Shown piece by piece: positions 3,293 through 47,183 of a stretch of 64,000 nt of DNA. Source of the DNA: Diaphorobacter caeni. Lineage in GTDB: Bacteria; Pseudomonadota; Gammaproteobacteria; Burkholderiales; Burkholderiaceae_C. Position 1 is the first letter of the stretch; every line of letters starts with the position of its first letter. Made by a program: the position numbers and the translations under genes. The notes under the pieces were generated by a model. That model was given only the letters and a program-made list of their open reading frames with translations, ran no database searches and had not been told where the DNA came from. The stretch spans positions 124,001-188,000 of the forward strand of contig NZ_JADKYZ010000006.1 of NCBI RefSeq assembly GCF_015354245.1, written 5' to 3'.

Positions 3293-4255
3293 ATGAACAA
3301 ACGCAATTTCCGACTGGCCCTCTCTCTGGCCGCCATCATGGCCGCATTGCCCATGACATCCAAGGCCCAGGAAACGGCATTGAGAGTGATCGTTCCCTAT
3401 TCCGCAGGCGGCAGCGCTGACGTCATCGCCCGCATGCTGACGGACGGGCTCAAGGAACATATGGGACGCATGGCCATCGTCGAGAATCGGCCCGGAGCCG
3501 GTGGCCGGATCGCGTTGTCGTCGCTGAAGGCGGCGCCCGGTGACGGAGCGGCCGTGGTGCTGGCCTTCACCGGCGTGCTTGTGAATTCCATCGTCTTCCA
3601 GAATGCCAAGGACTTCAGCTTCAAGGACGATTTCGTGGGGCTGGCGCAGGTGGGCACCATGCCTGCGGGATTGGCCGTGCCCTGGCAGCACAAGGCCAAC
3701 AACCTCAAGGAATTCATCGACCTGCGCAAGCAGGAGGGAGACTTTGTCTACGGCAACATGGGGCCCGGCTCGCTCACCCATCTGGCAGGACTGCGCTTTG
3801 CGGCGGCCACGCATCTCAAGGCCAACCCGATCGCCTATCAGGGCGGAGCACCCATGGCGAATGATCTGATGGGCGGACAGATTGATTCGGGGCTGGACAC
3901 CGTGGGTGATTTCGTGGAGCGCCACAAGGGCAAAAAGCTGAAGGTGCTGGGCGTCATGGGCAGCAAGCGATTCTCGCTGCTCCCCGATGTGCCCACGATG
4001 GCTGAACAGGGCGTTGCAAATGTGGAGGCCGAAATGTGGCTGGGCTTTCTGGGCTCCAGCAAGAACAGCCCGGCTTTCAATGCACGCTTTCAGGAGGCAG
4101 TGAAGAAGACCATGGAGTCACCTGCGCTCAGAGAAAAAATGGGCAAGCTCATCGATATCGAATACAAGGCCAGCGCTGACTTCCGCAAGGTGATGGAGGC
4201 GGACTTCGCGACCTGGACGCCGCTCATCGTGAGTTCGGGACTGGTGCAGAACTGA
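3293..4255 (+). CDS. Bug/TctC family periplasmic solute receptor
   Basis: 320 residues. The start is placed at the ATG at 3293, preceded by AAGGAGACAGACA and followed by a typical signal peptide (MNKRNFRLAL to TSKAQ); a longer frame upstream has no ribosome site. The binding-protein hallmark LRVIVPYSAGGSADVIAR and ENRPGAGGR are present. It is the second receptor in tandem after the one ending at 3166, and is followed by a strong terminator hairpin at 4289-4322. Two consecutive, clearly diverged Bug receptors suggest two ligands or a duplication followed by divergence. Confidence 0.9.
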   Translation: MNKRNFRLALSLAAIMAALPMTSKAQETALRVIVPYSAGGSADVIARMLTDGLKEHMGRMAIVENRPGAGGRIALSSLKAAPGDGAAVVLAFTGVLVNSIVFQNAKDFSFKDDFVGLAQVGTMPAGLAVPWQHKANNLKEFIDLRKQEGDFVYGNMGPGSLTHLAGLRFAAATHLKANPIAYQGGAPMANDLMGGQIDSGLDTVGDFVERHKGKKLKVLGVMGSKRFSLLPDVPTMAEQGVANVEAEMWLGFLGSSKNSPAFNARFQEAVKKTMESPALREKMGKLIDIEYKASADFRKVMEADFATWTPLIVSSGLVQN

Positions 4256-4288
4256 GATCGCAAAAACGCATCTGAGATGCAAGGAAAA

Positions 4289-4322
4289 AGAGGTTTGAAG
4301 CGTCGCGCTTCAAACCTCTCTT
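4289..4322. terminator. Bidirectional intrinsic terminator between convergent Bug genes
   Basis: A perfect 14-bp stem (4289-4302 with 4306-4319) closes a three-base loop. On the minus strand the stem is followed by CTTTTTCC, a good U-tract; on the plus strand the tail is only TCTT. It sits between the 3' ends of the convergent genes ending at 4255 (+) and 4387 (-). Confidence 0.85.
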
Positions 4323-4386
4323 GGACCTTATGGGGATCGCCAACACGCGCTTGCAAGCGTCGATGCCCGTATTGAAAGATGCCGAT

Positions 4387-5355
4387 TCAGCCCACGCTGA
4401 TGCCTGCACTCTTGGCCACGGCAGCCCAGCGGGACACTTCCGATGTGGTCAGCTGCGCCAGCGTTTCCGGCGTTCCGCCGCCGGTATCTGCGCCGAGGCT
4501 CGTCCAGCGGTCTACGAAGGATGCCTTCTGGAATGCCGAGTTGACGGCGGCGTTGATGGTCTGGACGACGGGCGCGGGCGTGTTCTGCGGAAGGTAGATG
4601 CCATACCAACTGGTCGCATCGTAGTTGGGCGCGCCGCTTTCGGACACCGTGGGAATCTGCGCCAGATAAGGTGCGCGCTTGGAGGAGGTGACGGCCAGCG
4701 CTCGGACGCTGCCAGCCTTGATGTGCTGCAGCGCGGAGGGCATGGTCTCGAACATCACATGCACGTTGCCCGCGATCAGATCGACGATGGCGGGGCCGGA
4801 GCCTCGGTAGGGTACGTGCAGCATCTCGGTGCCGGTGACGCTCTTGAAGTACTCGGTCATCATGTGCTGCATGGTGCCGGCGCCGGGAGTCGCGTAGCTG
4901 TACTTGTCCGGATGTGCCTTGAGCAAGGCGATCAGCTCGGCGATGTTCTTGACCGGCAAGGCGTTGTTGATGATCACGGCATGGTTCACGCGGCCGAGAA
5001 ACGCCGCCGGGGTCATCTGCCGAATGTCGTAGCCCAGCTTGGGATAGACGGATTGGGCGATGGCATGGTGGACCGCGCCGAACAATGCCGTGTAGCCGTC
5101 GGCCGGAGCCTTGGCGACAATGTCCGCCCCGATGGTTCCGCCCGCTCCACCGCGGTTGTCCACGATGGTGGAGCGACCCAGCTCCTGCGTCAGTTGATCG
5201 GCCATCGCGCGCGAGAGGATGTCCACCGTGCCACCCGGGGGGAAGGGCGCGACGAGTTTGATGGGCTGCGCGGGATAGCGCTGCTGGGCCATGACCAGGC
5301 TCGTCGGAGCCACTGAGGCACACGCGGCCATTGCCAGAAGTTGTCTGCGATCCAT
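4387..5355 (-). CDS. Bug/TctC family periplasmic solute receptor
   Basis: 322 residues starting MDRRQLLAMAA, with signal peptide to about residue 24, then the family motif IKLVAPFPPGGTVDILSR and VDNRGGAGGT. AAGGAGACAC precedes the start. It is transcribed away from the CoA-transferase-like operon beginning at 5631, and the shared 275-bp intergenic region contains the palindrome/T-tract motif at 5517-5537. It probably binds a carboxylate; the divergent arrangement suggests that this carboxylate is the substrate of the CoA-transferase operon. Confidence 0.9.
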   Translation of the reverse strand: MDRRQLLAMAACASVAPTSLVMAQQRYPAQPIKLVAPFPPGGTVDILSRAMADQLTQELGRSTIVDNRGGAGGTIGADIVAKAPADGYTALFGAVHHAIAQSVYPKLGYDIRQMTPAAFLGRVNHAVIINNALPVKNIAELIALLKAHPDKYSYATPGAGTMQHMMTEYFKSVTGTEMLHVPYRGSGPAIVDLIAGNVHVMFETMPSALQHIKAGSVRALAVTSSKRAPYLAQIPTVSESGAPNYDATSWYGIYLPQNTPAPVVQTINAAVNSAFQKASFVDRWTSLGADTGGGTPETLAQLTTSEVSRWAAVAKSAGISVG

Positions 5356-5516
5356 GTTTTTGTGTCTCCTTGCGTTGCTCGTTGATATCGACCGCGCAGG
5401 AGACGGTGGCAGTTTCCGGACTTGGCGTCTCGTTTCCTTGGCGATCGGCAGTCGAGCCCTGCGGGTTGAGCGGGGTCGGACATGCTCGAGTCATTCTGGA
5501 ATGTCGGTAATTCATC

Positions 5517-5537
5517 CTCAATTGAGTTTTTTTTCAA
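5517..5537. promoter_or_regulatory. Palindrome plus T-tract motif, copy 1 (candidate operator)
   Basis: A 10-bp palindrome CTCAATTGAG (5517-5526) is followed directly by eight T and CAA. An identical 21-base string occurs at 16945-16965, also in a divergent intergenic region upstream of a CoA-transferase gene. The inner part also reads TTGA-N8-TCAA. It may be a shared binding site for a regulator; which one is unknown. Confidence 0.45.
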
Positions 5538-5630
5538 CGCTTGCTTGGTAACGTATCGATCTGGATGCGGGCGTTCGGCATCGTTGCCATCGAAACTCGG
5601 ATCATTTGAAGCAAAGGTAAAGGAGACAAC

Positions 5631-6443
5631 ATGCCACAGACAATGGCACCGATGAGCGTGGATGACATCGCTGCGCAGATCAGCGATGGCTGCCGGCTTG
5701 CCATGCCCGTCGACTACGCCGGTGTGCCCATGGCCATCGTTCCCGCGCTGCTGCGCCGCGCGCCGCGCGATCTGGATCTGGTGGGCGTGCCGACGGCCGG
5801 GCTGTCGTTCGACATACTGATCGGATCGGGGCTGGTGCGCAGCCTGGAGACCAGTGCGGTCAGTCTGGGCGAGGCGGGTGGCGCGCCGTGCTTCATGCGC
5901 GCGATTGCCAACCGGTCGATCCAGATGAAGGACAGCACCTGCCCGGCGATCCACGCAGGTTTGATGGCGGCGCAGAAGGGGTCGCCCTTCACCACCTTGC
6001 GTGGACTGATCGGCACGGACGTGCTGCGGCATCGCCAGGATTGGCATGTCATGCAGAACCCGTTCGCGGCGCAGTCCGATCCCGTGGTCGCGATTCCGGC
6101 GCTGCATCCCGATGTGTCGGTGTTCCACGCGCCGATGGCCGATCGGGAGGGCAATGTCTGGATTGGCCGCAGGCGTGAACTGGCGGCCATGGCCTATGCC
6201 AGCCGCAGGAATTTCGTGACAGTGGAGCGCATCGTGGAGCATCGCCTGCTGGATGACGAGACCACGGCGGCCGGTGTGCTGCCCGCCATTTACGTGGATG
6301 GCATCGCCGTGGCGGAGAAGGGCGCGTGGCCCTACGGCCTGTGGGGCGAGTACGCACCGGACACGGCGCAGCTGCAGCGCTACGCCCAGATGGCCAGAAC
6401 GCAGGAAGGCTTTGAGCAATGGATTGCAGAGGTGTATGCATGA
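5631..6443 (+). CDS. CoA-transferase family I-like subunit A (GctA/IpdA superfamily)
   Basis: 270 residues, preceded by AAAGGAGACAAC. The protein has the alpha-subunit fold signature of glutaconate-type CoA-transferases: an N-terminal I-x-D-G-x-R-like segment (ISDGCRLAM), a central GSPFTTLRGLIGTD segment and the C-terminal EHRLLDD/GVLPAIYVDGIAV region. It would pair with the product of the overlapping downstream gene. Family members move CoA between acids or, in the IpdAB branch, hydrolyse cyclic acyl-CoAs in steroid breakdown. The acidic residue expected around the KDSTCPA segment is not obvious, so transferase activity should not be assumed. Confidence 0.8.
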   Translation: MPQTMAPMSVDDIAAQISDGCRLAMPVDYAGVPMAIVPALLRRAPRDLDLVGVPTAGLSFDILIGSGLVRSLETSAVSLGEAGGAPCFMRAIANRSIQMKDSTCPAIHAGLMAAQKGSPFTTLRGLIGTDVLRHRQDWHVMQNPFAAQSDPVVAIPALHPDVSVFHAPMADREGNVWIGRRRELAAMAYASRRNFVTVERIVEHRLLDDETTAAGVLPAIYVDGIAVAEKGAWPYGLWGEYAPDTAQLQRYAQMARTQEGFEQWIAEVYA

Positions 6444-7198
6444 ACGAAGTGACTTTGCGTGAGCGTCTGATCGTCACGATCGCCTCGCTGCTCGATGGTG
6501 CGCGCCATGTGGCAGTGGGTGCATCGTCCCCGATTCCCGCCGCCGCGGCCATGCTGCTGCGTGCGCAAAAGGAGGCCGCTAACGAGCCGGCGGTGCGGCT
6601 GTCCATTCTGGGATCGGTCAAGCACAACCTGTTCACCAACGGCTCGGCAGAGCTGTTCGATTGCGCCGGACAGGGCCGCATCGACGCCTTTTTTCTGGGG
6701 GGCGGGCAGATCGATGGACAGGGCAACATCAACCTGGTCGGCATTGGCGACTATCCGCAGACCAAGGTGCGCTGGCCGGGTTCCTTCGGCTCTGCCTATC
6801 TCTACTTCACCGTTCCCAAGGTGATCCTGTTTCGCGAAGAGCATTCACCGCGCGTATTTGTCGACAAGGTGGATTTCATCAGCGCGCCGGGCGTGAGCGA
6901 GCCGGACGTGTATCGCAAAGGGGGGCCCTATGCCCTGCTGACGGGCATGGCGCTGTTCATGTTCGATCCGTCCAAGGCGCGCTTTCGCCTGTTGCACATG
7001 CATCCGGGACACACGCTGGACGAGATCCAGTCCGCGACGGGCTTCGCGTTCGATGTGGACCCGCAACTGAGCGTGACCCCATCGCCCGACGCCGCAACGC
7101 TGGCGCTGCTGCGTGGCCGTGTGCTCGATGAGCTTCGCGAAACCTATCCCGACTTCGCACAACAACTGACCAAGGAGATAGCTGCACATGCAGAATGA
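6440..7198 (+). CDS. CoA-transferase family I-like subunit B (GctB/IpdB superfamily)
   Basis: 252 residues. The ATG at 6440 overlaps the stop of subunit A (ATGA) with GAGG just upstream, so I prefer it to an upstream in-frame start at 6419. The protein shows the superfamily's LGGGQIDGQGNINLVGIG motif and a KVRWPGSFGSAYL segment. The catalytic glutamate motif of classical transferase beta subunits (E-x-G, where the acyl-glutamate forms) is not visible; the equivalent stretch reads LGSVKHNLFTNGSAEL. This resembles the IpdAB-type hydrolase branch, but the substrate is unknown. Confidence 0.78.
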   Translation: MNEVTLRERLIVTIASLLDGARHVAVGASSPIPAAAAMLLRAQKEAANEPAVRLSILGSVKHNLFTNGSAELFDCAGQGRIDAFFLGGGQIDGQGNINLVGIGDYPQTKVRWPGSFGSAYLYFTVPKVILFREEHSPRVFVDKVDFISAPGVSEPDVYRKGGPYALLTGMALFMFDPSKARFRLLHMHPGHTLDEIQSATGFAFDVDPQLSVTPSPDAATLALLRGRVLDELRETYPDFAQQLTKEIAAHAE

Positions 7199-42604: not shown

Positions 42605-43633
42605 ATGCATGCAAGCACTTCCGCACCTCCGGCGTTCAGCGTGCAGCGCCAGACGCGCGCGAGCCAGAGCTTCGCCGTGATCGCAGCGGCGCTGGTGATC
42701 GTCGCGGCCAGTCTGCCGTTCTGGGGCGAATCGAGCTGGATGCGCGAGTTCGTCGAGATCGCCTGCTACTTCATCTTCGCGATGATGTGGAACCTGCTGG
42801 CCGGCTACGGCGGCATGGTGTCCATCGGCCAGCAGGCGTTCTTCGGCTTCGGCGGCTACGTGATGCTCATGCTCGGCAACTTCTGGGGCGTGAATCCCTT
42901 CGTCGGCATCGTGCTCGGCGCGCTGGCATCGGCGATCATCGCGATTCCCGTCTCGCGCCTTGCGTTCCGATTGCAGGGCGGCTACTTCGCCATCGGCACC
43001 TGGGTGATCGCCGAGGTGTTCCGCCTGAGCTTTTCCAACATCTCCGCCGTCGGCGGCGGCTCGGGCACCACGCTCACGGCGCTGCGCGGCATCAGCAAGT
43101 TCACCCGTGAATCGACCACCTACTGGATGGCGCTGGCCTGCGTGGTGCTGGTGGTCGTGCTGGTCTATCTGTTTCTGCGCAGCAAGCGCGGCCTTGCGCT
43201 GCTCGCGATCCGCGACAACGAAGTGGCGGCCAAGTCGCAGGGCATCGACGTGGGGCGCATGAAGCTCGCGGTCTACATCGTCGCGGCCTTTGGCGCGGGA
43301 CTGGCAGGGGCGCTGTATTTCGTCGGCAACCTGCGCATCAGCCCGAACGCGGCGTTCAGCGTGAACTGGACGGCCTTTGCCATCTTCATGGTGATGATCG
43401 GTGGGCTCGGCCGCATCGAAGGCCCGATCATCGGCGCGCTGCTGTTCTGGGCGCTCAACAAGTGCTTTGCGGACTACGGCAGCTGGTATCTCATGGGACT
43501 CGGGTTGCTCGCCATTGCCGTGACCATCCAGTTCAAGCAAGGTCTGTGGGGCTACGCGCAGCAGCGCTGGGGCTGGTCCCTGTTCCCCACGGCGCGGCAG
43601 CTGAAGCTCGACATCGCATCCACCAGGAGATGA
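42605..43633 (+). CDS. Branched-chain-type ABC transporter permease (LivM type)
   Basis: 342 residues with about nine hydrophobic segments. It contains the LivM motif MMWNLLAGYGGMVSIGQQAFFGFGGY and the coupling loop SKRGLALLAIRDNEVAAKSQGIDVGRMK. GAAGGAGTGAGCC precedes the ATG. It completes the importer with the LivH, LivG, LivF and receptor genes upstream. Confidence 0.93.
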   Translation: MHASTSAPPAFSVQRQTRASQSFAVIAAALVIVAASLPFWGESSWMREFVEIACYFIFAMMWNLLAGYGGMVSIGQQAFFGFGGYVMLMLGNFWGVNPFVGIVLGALASAIIAIPVSRLAFRLQGGYFAIGTWVIAEVFRLSFSNISAVGGGSGTTLTALRGISKFTRESTTYWMALACVVLVVVLVYLFLRSKRGLALLAIRDNEVAAKSQGIDVGRMKLAVYIVAAFGAGLAGALYFVGNLRISPNAAFSVNWTAFAIFMVMIGGLGRIEGPIIGALLFWALNKCFADYGSWYLMGLGLLAIAVTIQFKQGLWGYAQQRWGWSLFPTARQLKLDIASTRR

Positions 43634-43637
43634 ACCC

Positions 43638-44579
43638 ATGAAGAATATCGACCACCTGAGCATCACCCCCGAGGTCATCGCGCGCTTTGCCGACTGCACC
43701 CAGCCGCGCCTGAAGTACTTGCTGACCGAACTGGTGCAGAGTCTGCACGACTACGCCCGCAAGGTCGAGCTGACCGAGTCCGAACTGATGGCGGCCATCG
43801 GCTTTCTCACCGCCACCGGCCAGAAGTGTGACGACAAGCGTCAGGAATTCATTCTGCTGAGCGACGTGCTCGGCCTCTCGATGCTCGCCGTCGCGCAGAA
43901 CAACAAGTTCCCGCCTCAAGCCACCGAGGCCACCGTGTTCGGCCCGTTCTACGTGGACGGCGCGCCAAGCTACGCGCACGGCGACGACATCGCCAACGGC
44001 GCGCAGGGCGAGCCGCTCTACGTCATCGCCACGGTGAGTGACCTGAACGGCCAGCCCATCGCCAACGCGCTGGTCCACACCTGGCAGGCCGACAGCGATG
44101 GCTTCTACGACGTGCAGCGCCCCGATCAGGAGATGCAGGCGCGCGGCAACTTCCGCACCGATGGGCAAGGGCGCATCCATTTCCGCTCCATCCTGCCCGT
44201 CGCCTACCCCGTGCCCACCGACGGCCCGGTGGGCGACATCCTGCGCGCCTCGGGCCGCCACCCCTGGCGCCCCGCGCACGTCCACTTCATGATCGAAGCG
44301 CCGGGCTACCGAACCCTCGTCACCCACATCTTTCGCGAGGGCGACCAGTATCTCGAAAGCGACGTGGTGTTCGGCGTGCGCTCCTCGCTGGTGGCGCAGA
44401 TGCCGAGGCACGGGGCGGGGACGCCCACGCCCTCCGGCGAGGCTTCGGAGCGGGCATTTCATACCCTCGATGTGCAGTTTCGACTTGTCGAGGCAGCTTG
44501 GGACTTCGATGACTCGGGTTGCTTGCTGTCTACTGCGGCTTTCGGCCAGAAGCCGTCGCTGATGGAATCAAGACGCTGA
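43638..44579 (+). CDS. chqB: Hydroxyquinol 1,2-dioxygenase (intradiol ring-cleavage dioxygenase)
   Basis: 313 residues, starting 4 bases after the LivM-type gene. N-terminal helical linker domain followed by the intradiol beta-sandwich. Fe(III) ligands are Y157 (DGFYDVQ), Y190 (LPVAYPVPTDG), H214 and H216 (RPAHVHFMIEAPGY), with the same spacing (33, 24, 2) as in hydroxyquinol 1,2-dioxygenases. It would cleave hydroxyquinol to maleylacetate, joining the hydroquinone branch at the reductase encoded at 34181. Catechol cleavage is the alternative, but the maleylacetate reductase favours hydroxyquinol. The C-terminus is longer than usual. Confidence 0.85.
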   Translation: MKNIDHLSITPEVIARFADCTQPRLKYLLTELVQSLHDYARKVELTESELMAAIGFLTATGQKCDDKRQEFILLSDVLGLSMLAVAQNNKFPPQATEATVFGPFYVDGAPSYAHGDDIANGAQGEPLYVIATVSDLNGQPIANALVHTWQADSDGFYDVQRPDQEMQARGNFRTDGQGRIHFRSILPVAYPVPTDGPVGDILRASGRHPWRPAHVHFMIEAPGYRTLVTHIFREGDQYLESDVVFGVRSSLVAQMPRHGAGTPTPSGEASERAFHTLDVQFRLVEAAWDFDDSGCLLSTAAFGQKPSLMESRR

Positions 44580-44580
44580 C

Positions 44581-44641
44581 ATTCAACGTTTGAATTCAGC
44601 GGCCGCCGAAGGCGGTCCGCGAGAATGAAAGGTTAGAGCTC
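44581..44641 (-). other. attC-like integron recombination site (downstream of cassette gene)
   Basis: Read on the minus strand it begins GAGCTCTAAC (44641-44632), which includes the cassette gene's stop codon TAA, and ends with the core GTTGAAT (44587-44581; fits GTTRRRY). Between them the strand folds into an imperfect hairpin: ATTC/GAAT and GCGG/CCGC arms with an inner GGCGG stem. This is the architecture of attC sites. Confidence 0.7.
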
Positions 44642-45091
44642 ATTCGTGACGCGCTCCTTTGCTGCTTCAATTGCTTCGGAATCGATATCATCGGCGATCC
44701 CTGCGGCGTATGAGAGCCAATCTTGAAACGCTAGCCACTGTTCGCGCGAGTATGGCTCGATCGGATCCCAGCGATGTTCCGAGTTCGTCAAAGCATAAAG
44801 AACTGCGCTCGCCGCATCACATAGCCAGGGCCCGCTGGCATCAAGACCATAAATCAGCCAAGCGGGAAAGAAATAGCGTTTGGCTTCCGCTGACAGAAGT
44901 GGCATGTCCCATACGTGCCTATGAAAGACATCGGGCGGAATGTCCATTGGTTTATACGGGAAAAAATCGTCAGCAAGCTCGTTGCACTCTTCGCAAATGT
45001 GAGGCGCGATCTGATTTCGCTCTGGGTGCCGCACGGCTTCAAACGCATCTAGGATTCTTTCGCGCAACTCAACTGGATTCATGAGCTCTAA
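44587..45091 (-). mobile_element. Single integron-type gene cassette (505 bp)
   Basis: The unit runs from TTAGAGCTC (45091 on the minus strand), just after the G of an upstream attC-like core, to the G of the downstream core at 44587. Its first bases TTAGAGCTC with the preceding G are the exact complement of GAGCTCTAAC at the start of its own 3' site, the hallmark of cassettes that circularise through G/TT recombination. It contains one gene filling almost the whole unit, with the start codon 9 bases from the boundary and the stop inside the attC. No integrase is visible in the window. Confidence 0.65.
44633..45082 (-). CDS. Cassette-borne protein of unknown function (possibly DUF6714-like)
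   Basis: 149 residues, acidic, no signal peptide or membrane segment. Notable parts are HICEECNELADDFF (Cys-x-x-Cys near residue 30), PPDVFHRHVWDMPLLSAEAKRYFFPAWLIYGL, and a C-terminal WLAFQDWLSYAAGIADDIDSE. The look recalls DUF6714 proteins but I cannot confirm it. Codon use is visibly more A/T-rich than the neighbouring catabolic genes, consistent with lateral acquisition. The start codon follows the cassette boundary at once, with no room for a promoter and no clear ribosome site. Confidence 0.75.
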   Translation of the reverse strand: MNPVELRERILDAFEAVRHPERNQIAPHICEECNELADDFFPYKPMDIPPDVFHRHVWDMPLLSAEAKRYFFPAWLIYGLDASGPWLCDAASAVLYALTNSEHRWDPIEPYSREQWLAFQDWLSYAAGIADDIDSEAIEAAKERVTNEL

Positions 45092-45142
45092 CGTTCGAAT
45101 TAACGGGCGCCGTGGGGCTTCCCGCTGAATGAGGGGTTAGGT
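45083..45142 (-). other. attC-like integron recombination site (upstream of cassette gene)
   Basis: On the minus strand it reads ACCTAAC (45142-45136; fits RYYYAAC), an imperfect stem (ATTCAGCGGG with CCCGTTAAT) and GTTAGAGCTC (45092-45083) where the next cassette begins. It presumably is the 3' site of a lost or decayed preceding cassette. Confidence 0.6.
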
Positions 45143-45373
45143 AACTGTGGGCTCATTGAATCTCCTTCGTGCGATTTGCACATAAAATTCCATGAAACCC
45201 GGTAGGCTTGCTGGCCTAGTTGTTCACGGAGTATGACAGACCGCTATGCGGTTGATGGACGAATGTCTGTTGTGGGTCGCTTCCTGCACCGGAGAATAGG
45301 CGAAAACTCATAAGTTTTCAGGTGTTTCCGACCTGATTTACCCGCCCCCGAGCTGGGGCGCTTCCTACCCGTC

Positions 45374-45823
45374 TCATGCAGTGAACATCCCCGAAAAATC
45401 GCAACACTCTTGTGCGAGCAGGCAGATATCCGACACCAACACACTCTTGAGTTGGGGCTTGAAGAGCGCGACGTAGGGCACGGCCGGGCCGGGGTCTATG
45501 GTGGCGAGCAGCTGCAGCTGTCCCGCGTCGATCAGCGGACGCAGGCAGTCCTTGGGCGTGTAGCTGATGCCCATGCCTGCTGCGGTCAGGCCGATCAGCG
45601 GCAGCAGGCTGTTGGTGATCACGGGCGGGTTGATCTGCTCGACCATGTTCTCTTCAAGCCAGCGGTCGACGATGCGACCAAGGCCCGAGTGGTCGCTTTG
45701 GGTGAGCAGCTTGTCGTAGTCCACGGTGGCCGCAAGCATGCCAAGCTCGACAAGGAGTCGGGCGCAACGGTCGAGTGATTGACTTGCGGCGTTCTGGATG
45801 CGTGATCCGGCGAGGGCGAGCAT
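45374..45823 (-). pseudogene. Truncated LysR regulator (C-terminal effector domain only)
   Basis: 149 residues matching only the second half of a LysR regulator: DHSGLGRIVDRWLEEN, TNSLLPLIGLTAAGMGISYTPKDCL and VPYVALFKPQLKS are typical of the effector domain. No helix-turn-helix is encoded upstream; the sequence runs into the carA promoter region within 60 bases. The first 45 residues do not resemble the family, suggesting a deletion or rearrangement junction. Most likely a non-functional remnant. Confidence 0.7.
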
Positions 45824-45876
45824 GCCCGAGCCGGGTTGCGCACCCGTCCTACCTATCAGGGTTAATCCCCACGCGT

Positions 45877-45882
45877 TATAAT
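45877..45882 (+). promoter_or_regulatory. carA: Candidate -10 element of carA promoter
   Basis: A perfect TATAAT in GCGTTATAATTAGCGG. No good -35 is seen (CTATCA at about 18 bases upstream is weak). It would give a leader of about 120 bases before the carA start. Confidence 0.5.
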
Positions 45883-46008
45883 TAGCGGCTTTCCAGAAAT
45901 CAGTCGCCCGGCCGCATCAAAGCAACTTATTCAACGCAGCAGTCAGCAGGACATGTCACAGGCATGCCCGCAGGCTCCCGGGCGACCCGTAACCATTCGG
46001 AGAACCCA

Positions 46009-47183
46009 GTGCTTTTGTCTCTCAAGGGAACCTTCCCATCCGCCATTCTGGCGCTCGCAGACGGCACGGTCTTTATTGGCAACTCGATCGGTGCCACCGG
46101 CACCACGGTCGGTGAAGTGGTGTTCAACACCTCGCTCACCGGCTATCAGGAAATCCTCACCGACCCCAGCTACTGCCAGCAGATCGTCACTCTGACGTAT
46201 CCGCACATCGGTAACTACGGCGTCAATTCCGAGGATGTCGAAGCCAACAAGATCCATGCTGCCGGTCTGATCATCAAGAACCTGCCGCTTTTGGCCAGCA
46301 ACTTCCGCATGGAAGAGACGCTGCCCCAATACCTTGTGCGCCAGAACACCGTTGCGATCGCCAACATCGACACCCGCAAGCTCACCCGACTGCTGCGCGA
46401 CAAGGGCGCGCAGAACGGCGCCATCGTCGGCCTGGCCGACGGTGAAGAAGTCACGCAGGCGCGCATCGATGCGGCCGTGGCTGCCGCCAAGGCCGCTCCG
46501 AGCATGAAGGGTCTGGACCTCGCACAGGTCGTCACCACCGAAAAGAATTACACGTGGGACGAGGCTGAGTGGGTGCTGGGTCAGGGCTACGGCAAGCAGA
46601 CCGCGCCGCGCTTCAATGTGGTGGCGTATGACTTCGGCGTGAAGTTCAACATCCTGCGCATGCTGGCTGAACGTGGCTGCAAGCTCACCGTCGTGCCTGC
46701 CAAGACCTCGGCAGCCGAAGTGCTGGCGATGAATCCCGATGGCGTGTTCCTCTCGAACGGCCCTGGCGATCCAGCGCCTTGCGACTACGCGATTGCCGCC
46801 GTCAAGGAAATCGTGGAATCGGGCAAGCCGACTTTCGGCATTTGCCTCGGTCACCAGATCATGGCGCTGGCCGCCGGTGCCAAGACCTTCAAGATGGACA
46901 ACAGCCACCACGGCGCGAACCATCCCGTGAAGGACCTGGACAACGGCCGCGTGAGCATCACGAGCCAGAACCACGGCTTTGCGGTGGAGCTGGACTCGCT
47001 GCCTGCGAACCTGCGCGCCACGCACATCAGCCTGTTCGACGGCACGCTGCAAGGCCTCGAGCACAAGGACAAGCCGGCGTTCTGCTTCCAGGGTCACCCT
47101 GAGGCTTCGCCCGGCCCGCACGACATCGGATACCTGTTTGACCGCTTCACGGCATTGATGGCCAAGGCCAAGGAGAACAAATA

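Follow-up and report, generated by a model that had tools for sequence, protein, structure and literature searches.

Results

The window, the 64,000-nucleotide stretch analysed here, corresponds to G000:C31:124001-188000 of a 6.0-Mb draft genome in 34 contigs. Between a dioxygenase gene (43638-44579, plus strand) and a truncated LysR-type gene (45374-45823, minus strand), it carries a single integron cassette flanked by two attC sites, as the first-pass annotation had proposed. As the cassette gene is encoded on the minus strand, the site at 45086-45142 (attC_A) is the upstream one and the site at 44581-44638 (attC_B) the downstream one, both on the minus strand.

We scored attC sites with a covariance model (R1) of 33 aligned attC sites, out of 56 short ones listed, which were chosen by a pairing script from 20 stretches adjoining intI in 19 genomes of the family. 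The window sites were left out of this model, which is not IntegronFinder's own. Neither site is background: attC_B reached 54.8 bits (E=7.2e-13) and attC_A 35.0 bits (E=2.9e-7), and the third-best place in the 64-kb window scored 11.1 bits (E=1.8). Both keep the RYYYAAC/GTTRRRY-type ends originally described, but the imperfect hairpins described with them hold only in part. As single-stranded DNA attC_B folds well (z of -5.0 on the plus strand, which is the bottom strand of the site, and -4.2 on the other), whereas the fold of attC_A is unconvincing (z of -0.5 and -1.2) and its hairpin has thus probably decayed. The R' of attC_B (GTTGAAT) is unpaired with its R'' because this R' is part of the DNA beyond the cassette; an unpaired R' is expected at the last cassette of an array. 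Over 54 bases, attC_B is 90.7% identical to a place on plasmids annotated aacA34.

The cassette unit runs between two G/TT points (44587-45091, minus strand; about 505 bp), and its 5' GTTAGAGCTCAT and 3' ATGAGCTCTAAC are reverse complements at 12 of 12 positions. A gene of 149 aa (44633-45082, minus strand) fills the unit, with its TAA (44633-44635) inside attC_B. The unit is therefore built as integron cassettes are, its 5' end being complementary to R'' of its own attC and its stop codon lying in or near that site. The G+C content of the gene is 52.2%, compared with 63.3% for the window, and 2 of 283 tiles of 450 bp have so low a value. Complementary ends, a gene that fills its unit and an A/T-rich composition had all been noted before, and are borne out.

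The encoded protein is a distant relative of DUF6714 proteins. It had no family match in Pfam (up to E=10), NCBIfam or PADLOC, and does not itself reach the Pfam cut-off for DUF6714 (PF20461). When 399 genomes of the order were searched, six besides its own gave a match at E<=0.01. Two of these matches are convincing, one with E=6.7e-12 and 42% over 70 residues, the other with E=2.4e-8 and 31%. These two relatives (158 and 170 aa) exceed the DUF6714 cut-off and a third falls below it. Searches with the protein returned no relatives among genome contigs and no matches on plasmids.

A promoter scan of 44400-45500 gave no promoter-like site, and the two terminator-like sites in the same interval are about the number expected. 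Rfam produced a single sub-threshold match over 43600-46100, which is no attC. By eye, an AAGGAG and an ATG open a frame of 17 codons that enters attC_A (45103-45167, minus strand). This frame is probably the start of a short frame that overlaps attI in relatives.

Upstream of attC_A lie remnants of an integron integrase gene that, like the array end described below, the first-pass annotation had not noted. In G003, a genome of the family with an intact intI of 335 codons, the gene opens with AAAATTCC-ATGAAACCCGG, closes with GGAGCATGA and has a distinctive flank beyond it. Both edges recur in the window, 42 to 138 bp upstream of attC_A and in the right order and strand. All 19 bases of the intI start region (45184-45202, plus strand) agree with G003, as do 46 of 54 in the intI end with its 3' flank (45227-45280, plus strand). 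Their scores are 38 and 73, whereas 1586 tiles taken from the rest of the window reach at most 26 and 32, respectively. The reading frame is open from the intI ATG through the intI stop and encodes the stub MKPGRLAGLVVHGV, followed by the stop (45192-45236, plus strand), in which the first codons are joined in frame to the last, leaving 14 codons compared with 335 in G003. R3, a broader sequence model based on nine intI starts, also has its best place in the window at the intI start, yet at only 10.0 bits (E=0.041), the start match being short. Most of the evidential weight is on the end match, in which the flank may be a repeat. R3 matches 45183-45202 only; the attI core is not visible, and by eye no more of attI than the beginning of the overlapping frame can be recognized.

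The first-pass annotation had seen no integrase in the window, and this absence extends to the whole draft genome. A search with TIGR02249 gave five partial matches, all below cut-off and the best of them a XerD gene, although an unassembled stretch of this 34-contig draft could still hold an integron integrase. Among 200 genomes of the family, 83 have a TIGR02249 match above cut-off. Thus, the locus lacks the intact intI of a complete integron and has what defines a CALIN, at least two attC sites with no integron integrase nearby, as only the 14-codon stub adjoins the array.

Downstream, attC_B is followed by a 45-bp array end, block E (44543-44587, minus strand), which starts with the GTT that completes the R' of attC_B. 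A sequence-only model (R2) of seven copies, one each from this genome and G003, two from G187 and three from G201, which starts at the G of R' and hence excludes attC, scores 57.4 bits at 44540-44587, with 9.7 bits at its next-best place in the window. Unrestricted BLAST found block E in 3 of 200 family genomes (this genome, G187 twice and G003), with similarity stopping about 50 bp out. With a limit of E<=0.01, R2 has matches in 84 of the 399 genomes, and many of them are weak or partial. At E<=1e-4 there are 33 copies, of which 20 begin in the R' of an R1 attC (13.1 to 60.6 bits, three of them weak at 13.1 to 16.3 bits) and a 21st, in G604, adjoins a 12.1-bit attC. Beside the remaining 12, no attC reached the thresholds applied, and a few of these look attC-like by eye. 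When the seven training copies are set aside, 13 of 26 copies directly follow an attC. Several copies come from one genus (g85) and are therefore not independent. Nine copies from nine genomes agree at 73-100% per 5-nt step to nucleotide 45, at 49% in the next step and at 20-35% thereafter. This sharp edge is partly built in, since the copies were selected with a 48-position model; the BLAST end points agree with it.

Block E occurs at three places in G201, a genome of the same genus, and arrays with an intact intI that end in block E are present in G003 and on contig C2 of G201. A search of plasmids with block E gave no matches, and among the titles listed from an open-licence literature library none seemed to describe terminal repeats or an array end for chromosomal integrons of this type. 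A reading of block E as a scattered landing site (attG) was rejected, as block E terminates arrays that have an intact intI in both G003 and G201 and none of the 26 copies listed is clearly empty with its upstream half conserved. At our site the dioxygenase frame extends into block E (44485-44579) and encodes 313 aa, compared with 287 aa in G201; the extension apparently followed a deletion of about 66 bp in comparison with G201.

The opposite end shows a related, less clear pattern. Outward from the intI stop, G003, G689 and the window agree at 73-100% per step over 45 bp and then at 40%, 73%, 47% and 7-27%, a less clean drop, and across eight genomes likeness is limited to the first 15 bases outward of the stop. 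In 6 of the 30 top relatives found with the G201 integrase, that of G201 included, a motif resembling bases 1-16 of block E overlaps the intI stop and scores above 8 exactly there. In a wider, overlapping set of 51 intI loci, 3 of the 32 usable stops exceed this score, and 1 of 32 does so when the motif faces inward. For either set, 1.9% of random tiles score as high. Most intI genes are without the motif at the stop codon, including the 96%-identical one of G010.

We compared the locus with five congeners (G201, G018, G147, G202 and G200), using 2463 bases around the site. The dioxygenase was matched over most of its length in G201 alone (91%), which also matches the LysR side (45302-45717). 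Between the two genes, G201 holds a different cassette gene (274 aa, DUF2971) with its own attC of 40.5 bits. The same interval also contains an intI start that carries mutations, a stretch resembling attI and a gene for a 777-aa AAA ATPase. Since the window strain and G201 differ here both in their cassette and in the way the intI start has decayed, their common ancestor probably had an integron at this place, its cassettes having since changed and its intI decayed differently in each line. Matches in G018, G147 and G200 are confined to the start of the next gene along, which we take to be carA, and in G202 the LysR gene is present and the dioxygenase is not beside it. Among the relatives searched, none shows an empty site in which the dioxygenase directly adjoins the LysR gene, and neither a fuller intI at this place nor the cassette gene there without attC sites was found.

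The LysR side has also changed in the window strain. In the window (45374-45823 and 45717-45738) the LysR-type gene is cut to 149 aa, compared with 300 aa in G201, and about 2.3 kb that in G201 separates the LysR gene from the next gene, with frames of 212 and 334 aa, is absent from the window.

Discussion

With both attC sites, the cassette boundary and sequence matching both edges of intI in place, and with no intI above cut-off in the genome, the region is very probably a degraded chromosomal integron, a CALIN that arose through the loss of intI. We infer the order of the deletions, the present function of the locus and any use of its attC sites in trans. The ancestral integron would have comprised an array of cassettes together with attI and intI. 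Of some 335 intI codons, about 320 would have been removed by an internal deletion that joined the first and last codons in frame, and the greater part of attI and the body of one or more cassettes would have been lost as well. These losses would have brought the apparent start of the attI-overlapping frame against the decayed attC_A, leaving one cassette with a well-formed attC_B and then the conserved array end.

As the genome has no integrase, the cassette unit would now be fixed in cis. An integron integrase arriving on another element might use attC_B, and excision of the cassette would also require the decayed attC_A. Expression of the cassette gene, if any, would depend on transcription from outside. 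If the gene is translated, the AAGGAG...ATG just upstream, a probable remnant of the attI-overlapping frame, would read 17 codons into attC_A.

It is possible that the integron decayed in just this way and that selection keeps the cassette gene, expressed via the leftover start upstream of attC_A. The 149-aa frame is intact, and the AAGGAG-ATG frame, as recognized by eye, lies directly upstream of attC_A. However, 44400-45500 contains no promoter-like site and no close relative was found on which selection could be gauged, so we regard selection on this gene as unlikely.

A different origin, which the first-pass annotation had also allowed, is that one or more cassettes from a mobile integron were inserted at a non-integron site (attG), with an integrase present only temporarily. 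Loot et al. reportedly described cassette insertion at attG sites in 2024. Insertion of this kind is also a published alternative origin (PMC12901181), and a genome without an integrase above cut-off and a lone cassette of lower G+C would agree with it. However, a cassette at an attG lies in DNA without an integron platform, whereas here remnants of the intI start and end adjoin attC_A. Additionally, block E is an array end common to integrons with an intact intI, none of the 26 copies listed is clearly an empty site whose upstream half is conserved, and the congener G201 carries a relic at the same place. Insertion at an attG is thus disfavoured and appears highly improbable. That both hairpins arose by chance beside an ordinary orphan gene, to which the poor fold of attC_A might point, can be dismissed. 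The sites score 54.8 and 35.0 bits, whereas nothing else in the 64 kb exceeds 11.1 bits; attC_B has 90.7% identity to the site of a known cassette on plasmids; and the cassette ends are complementary at all 12 positions.

A degraded chromosomal integron is a known kind of relic; what is less expected is a 45-bp end in common with other arrays of the family. Like a CALIN, as described in the IntegronFinder 2.0 report (PMC9024848), the window has two attC sites and no integrase, but here the lost integrase is visible as a stub, so that the origin of this one could be traced. Decay of intI in chromosomal integrons is also the subject of a 2008 survey of intI pseudogenes and pseudo-integrons (PMC2426708). 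There, pseudogenes made up nearly a third of the intI genes, and a fifth of the hosts carried more than one intI, the presence of more than one integron in a genome being common. Compared with those pseudogenes, the intI of the window is almost wholly gone, in frame, with 14 codons left. The complete integron on contig C2 of G201 (L168) has a related intI start, attC sites and block E as its array end, but differs in its intact 330-aa intI, its recognizable attI and its genomic place.

The locus thus offers a traced example of an integrase-less cassette cluster produced by near-complete deletion of intI and not by off-site insertion, two origins that counts of attC sites cannot separate. Block E could serve as a simple marker of which scattered clusters are decayed integrons, and of whether whole chromosomal integrons move as units. 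With block E at the array end and the motif at the intI stop, the ends of the integrons in G003 and G201 face outward as loose inverted copies, and this arrangement suggests that whole integrons may have moved as bounded units. More broadly, the integrons of this integrase subfamily might be bounded units that moved whole, and many scattered integrase-less arrays, the window included, might be the remains of such moves and not isolated insertions, as genomes like G201 hold intact and eroded units together. We put this forward tentatively and think it somewhat doubtful; it draws on block E forming the R' of the last attC and ending the array, on the outward motif at the intI stop and on sequences beyond that are unrelated between genomes.

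Other arrays in the genome and its relatives

Genome-wide, R1 at E<=10 marked six places: the two window sites, two on contig C17 (65.9 and 32.4 bits) and two on contig C32 (22.0 and 15.9 bits). When C17 was searched alone, a third attC appeared there (34.3 bits). This contig (L062; G000:C17, 1-7097) carries a second integrase-less array, with three cassette genes, one of them an intact aac(6')-Ib, and three attC sites. The whole contig looks like one Tn3-family transposon, with a transposase at 4091-7057 (853 bits) and inverted ends of about 46 bp by eye, and the left edge of its first cassette resembles the class 1 attI (attI1). The 22.0-bit place on C32 (L063, 6960-7013; G000:C32:46959-47012, plus strand; E=0.144 in the genome) is a single weak attC-like site whose R'' contains the stop codon of the preceding gene.

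In the congeners, attC sites at E<=0.01 numbered eight in G201, four in G018, one each in G147 and G202, and none in G200. On contig C1 of G201, an integrase-less array (L092, 4200-7700) contains two copies of block E and an intI broken after about 25 codons, and its neighbours resemble, by eye, genes of integrative conjugative elements. The left ends of some arrays were considered as integrase-less attI units and rejected as such, since several adjoin a broken intI and that of L168 an intact one. The same shortened intI start recurs in arrays of different genomes (L158, 2681-2865; L163, 2539-2723; L091, 7001-7185; all minus strand), where it reads GAAACCCGGCACGC, 11 to 13 other bases and then AACTATAGCTTGC, and is divergent thereafter.
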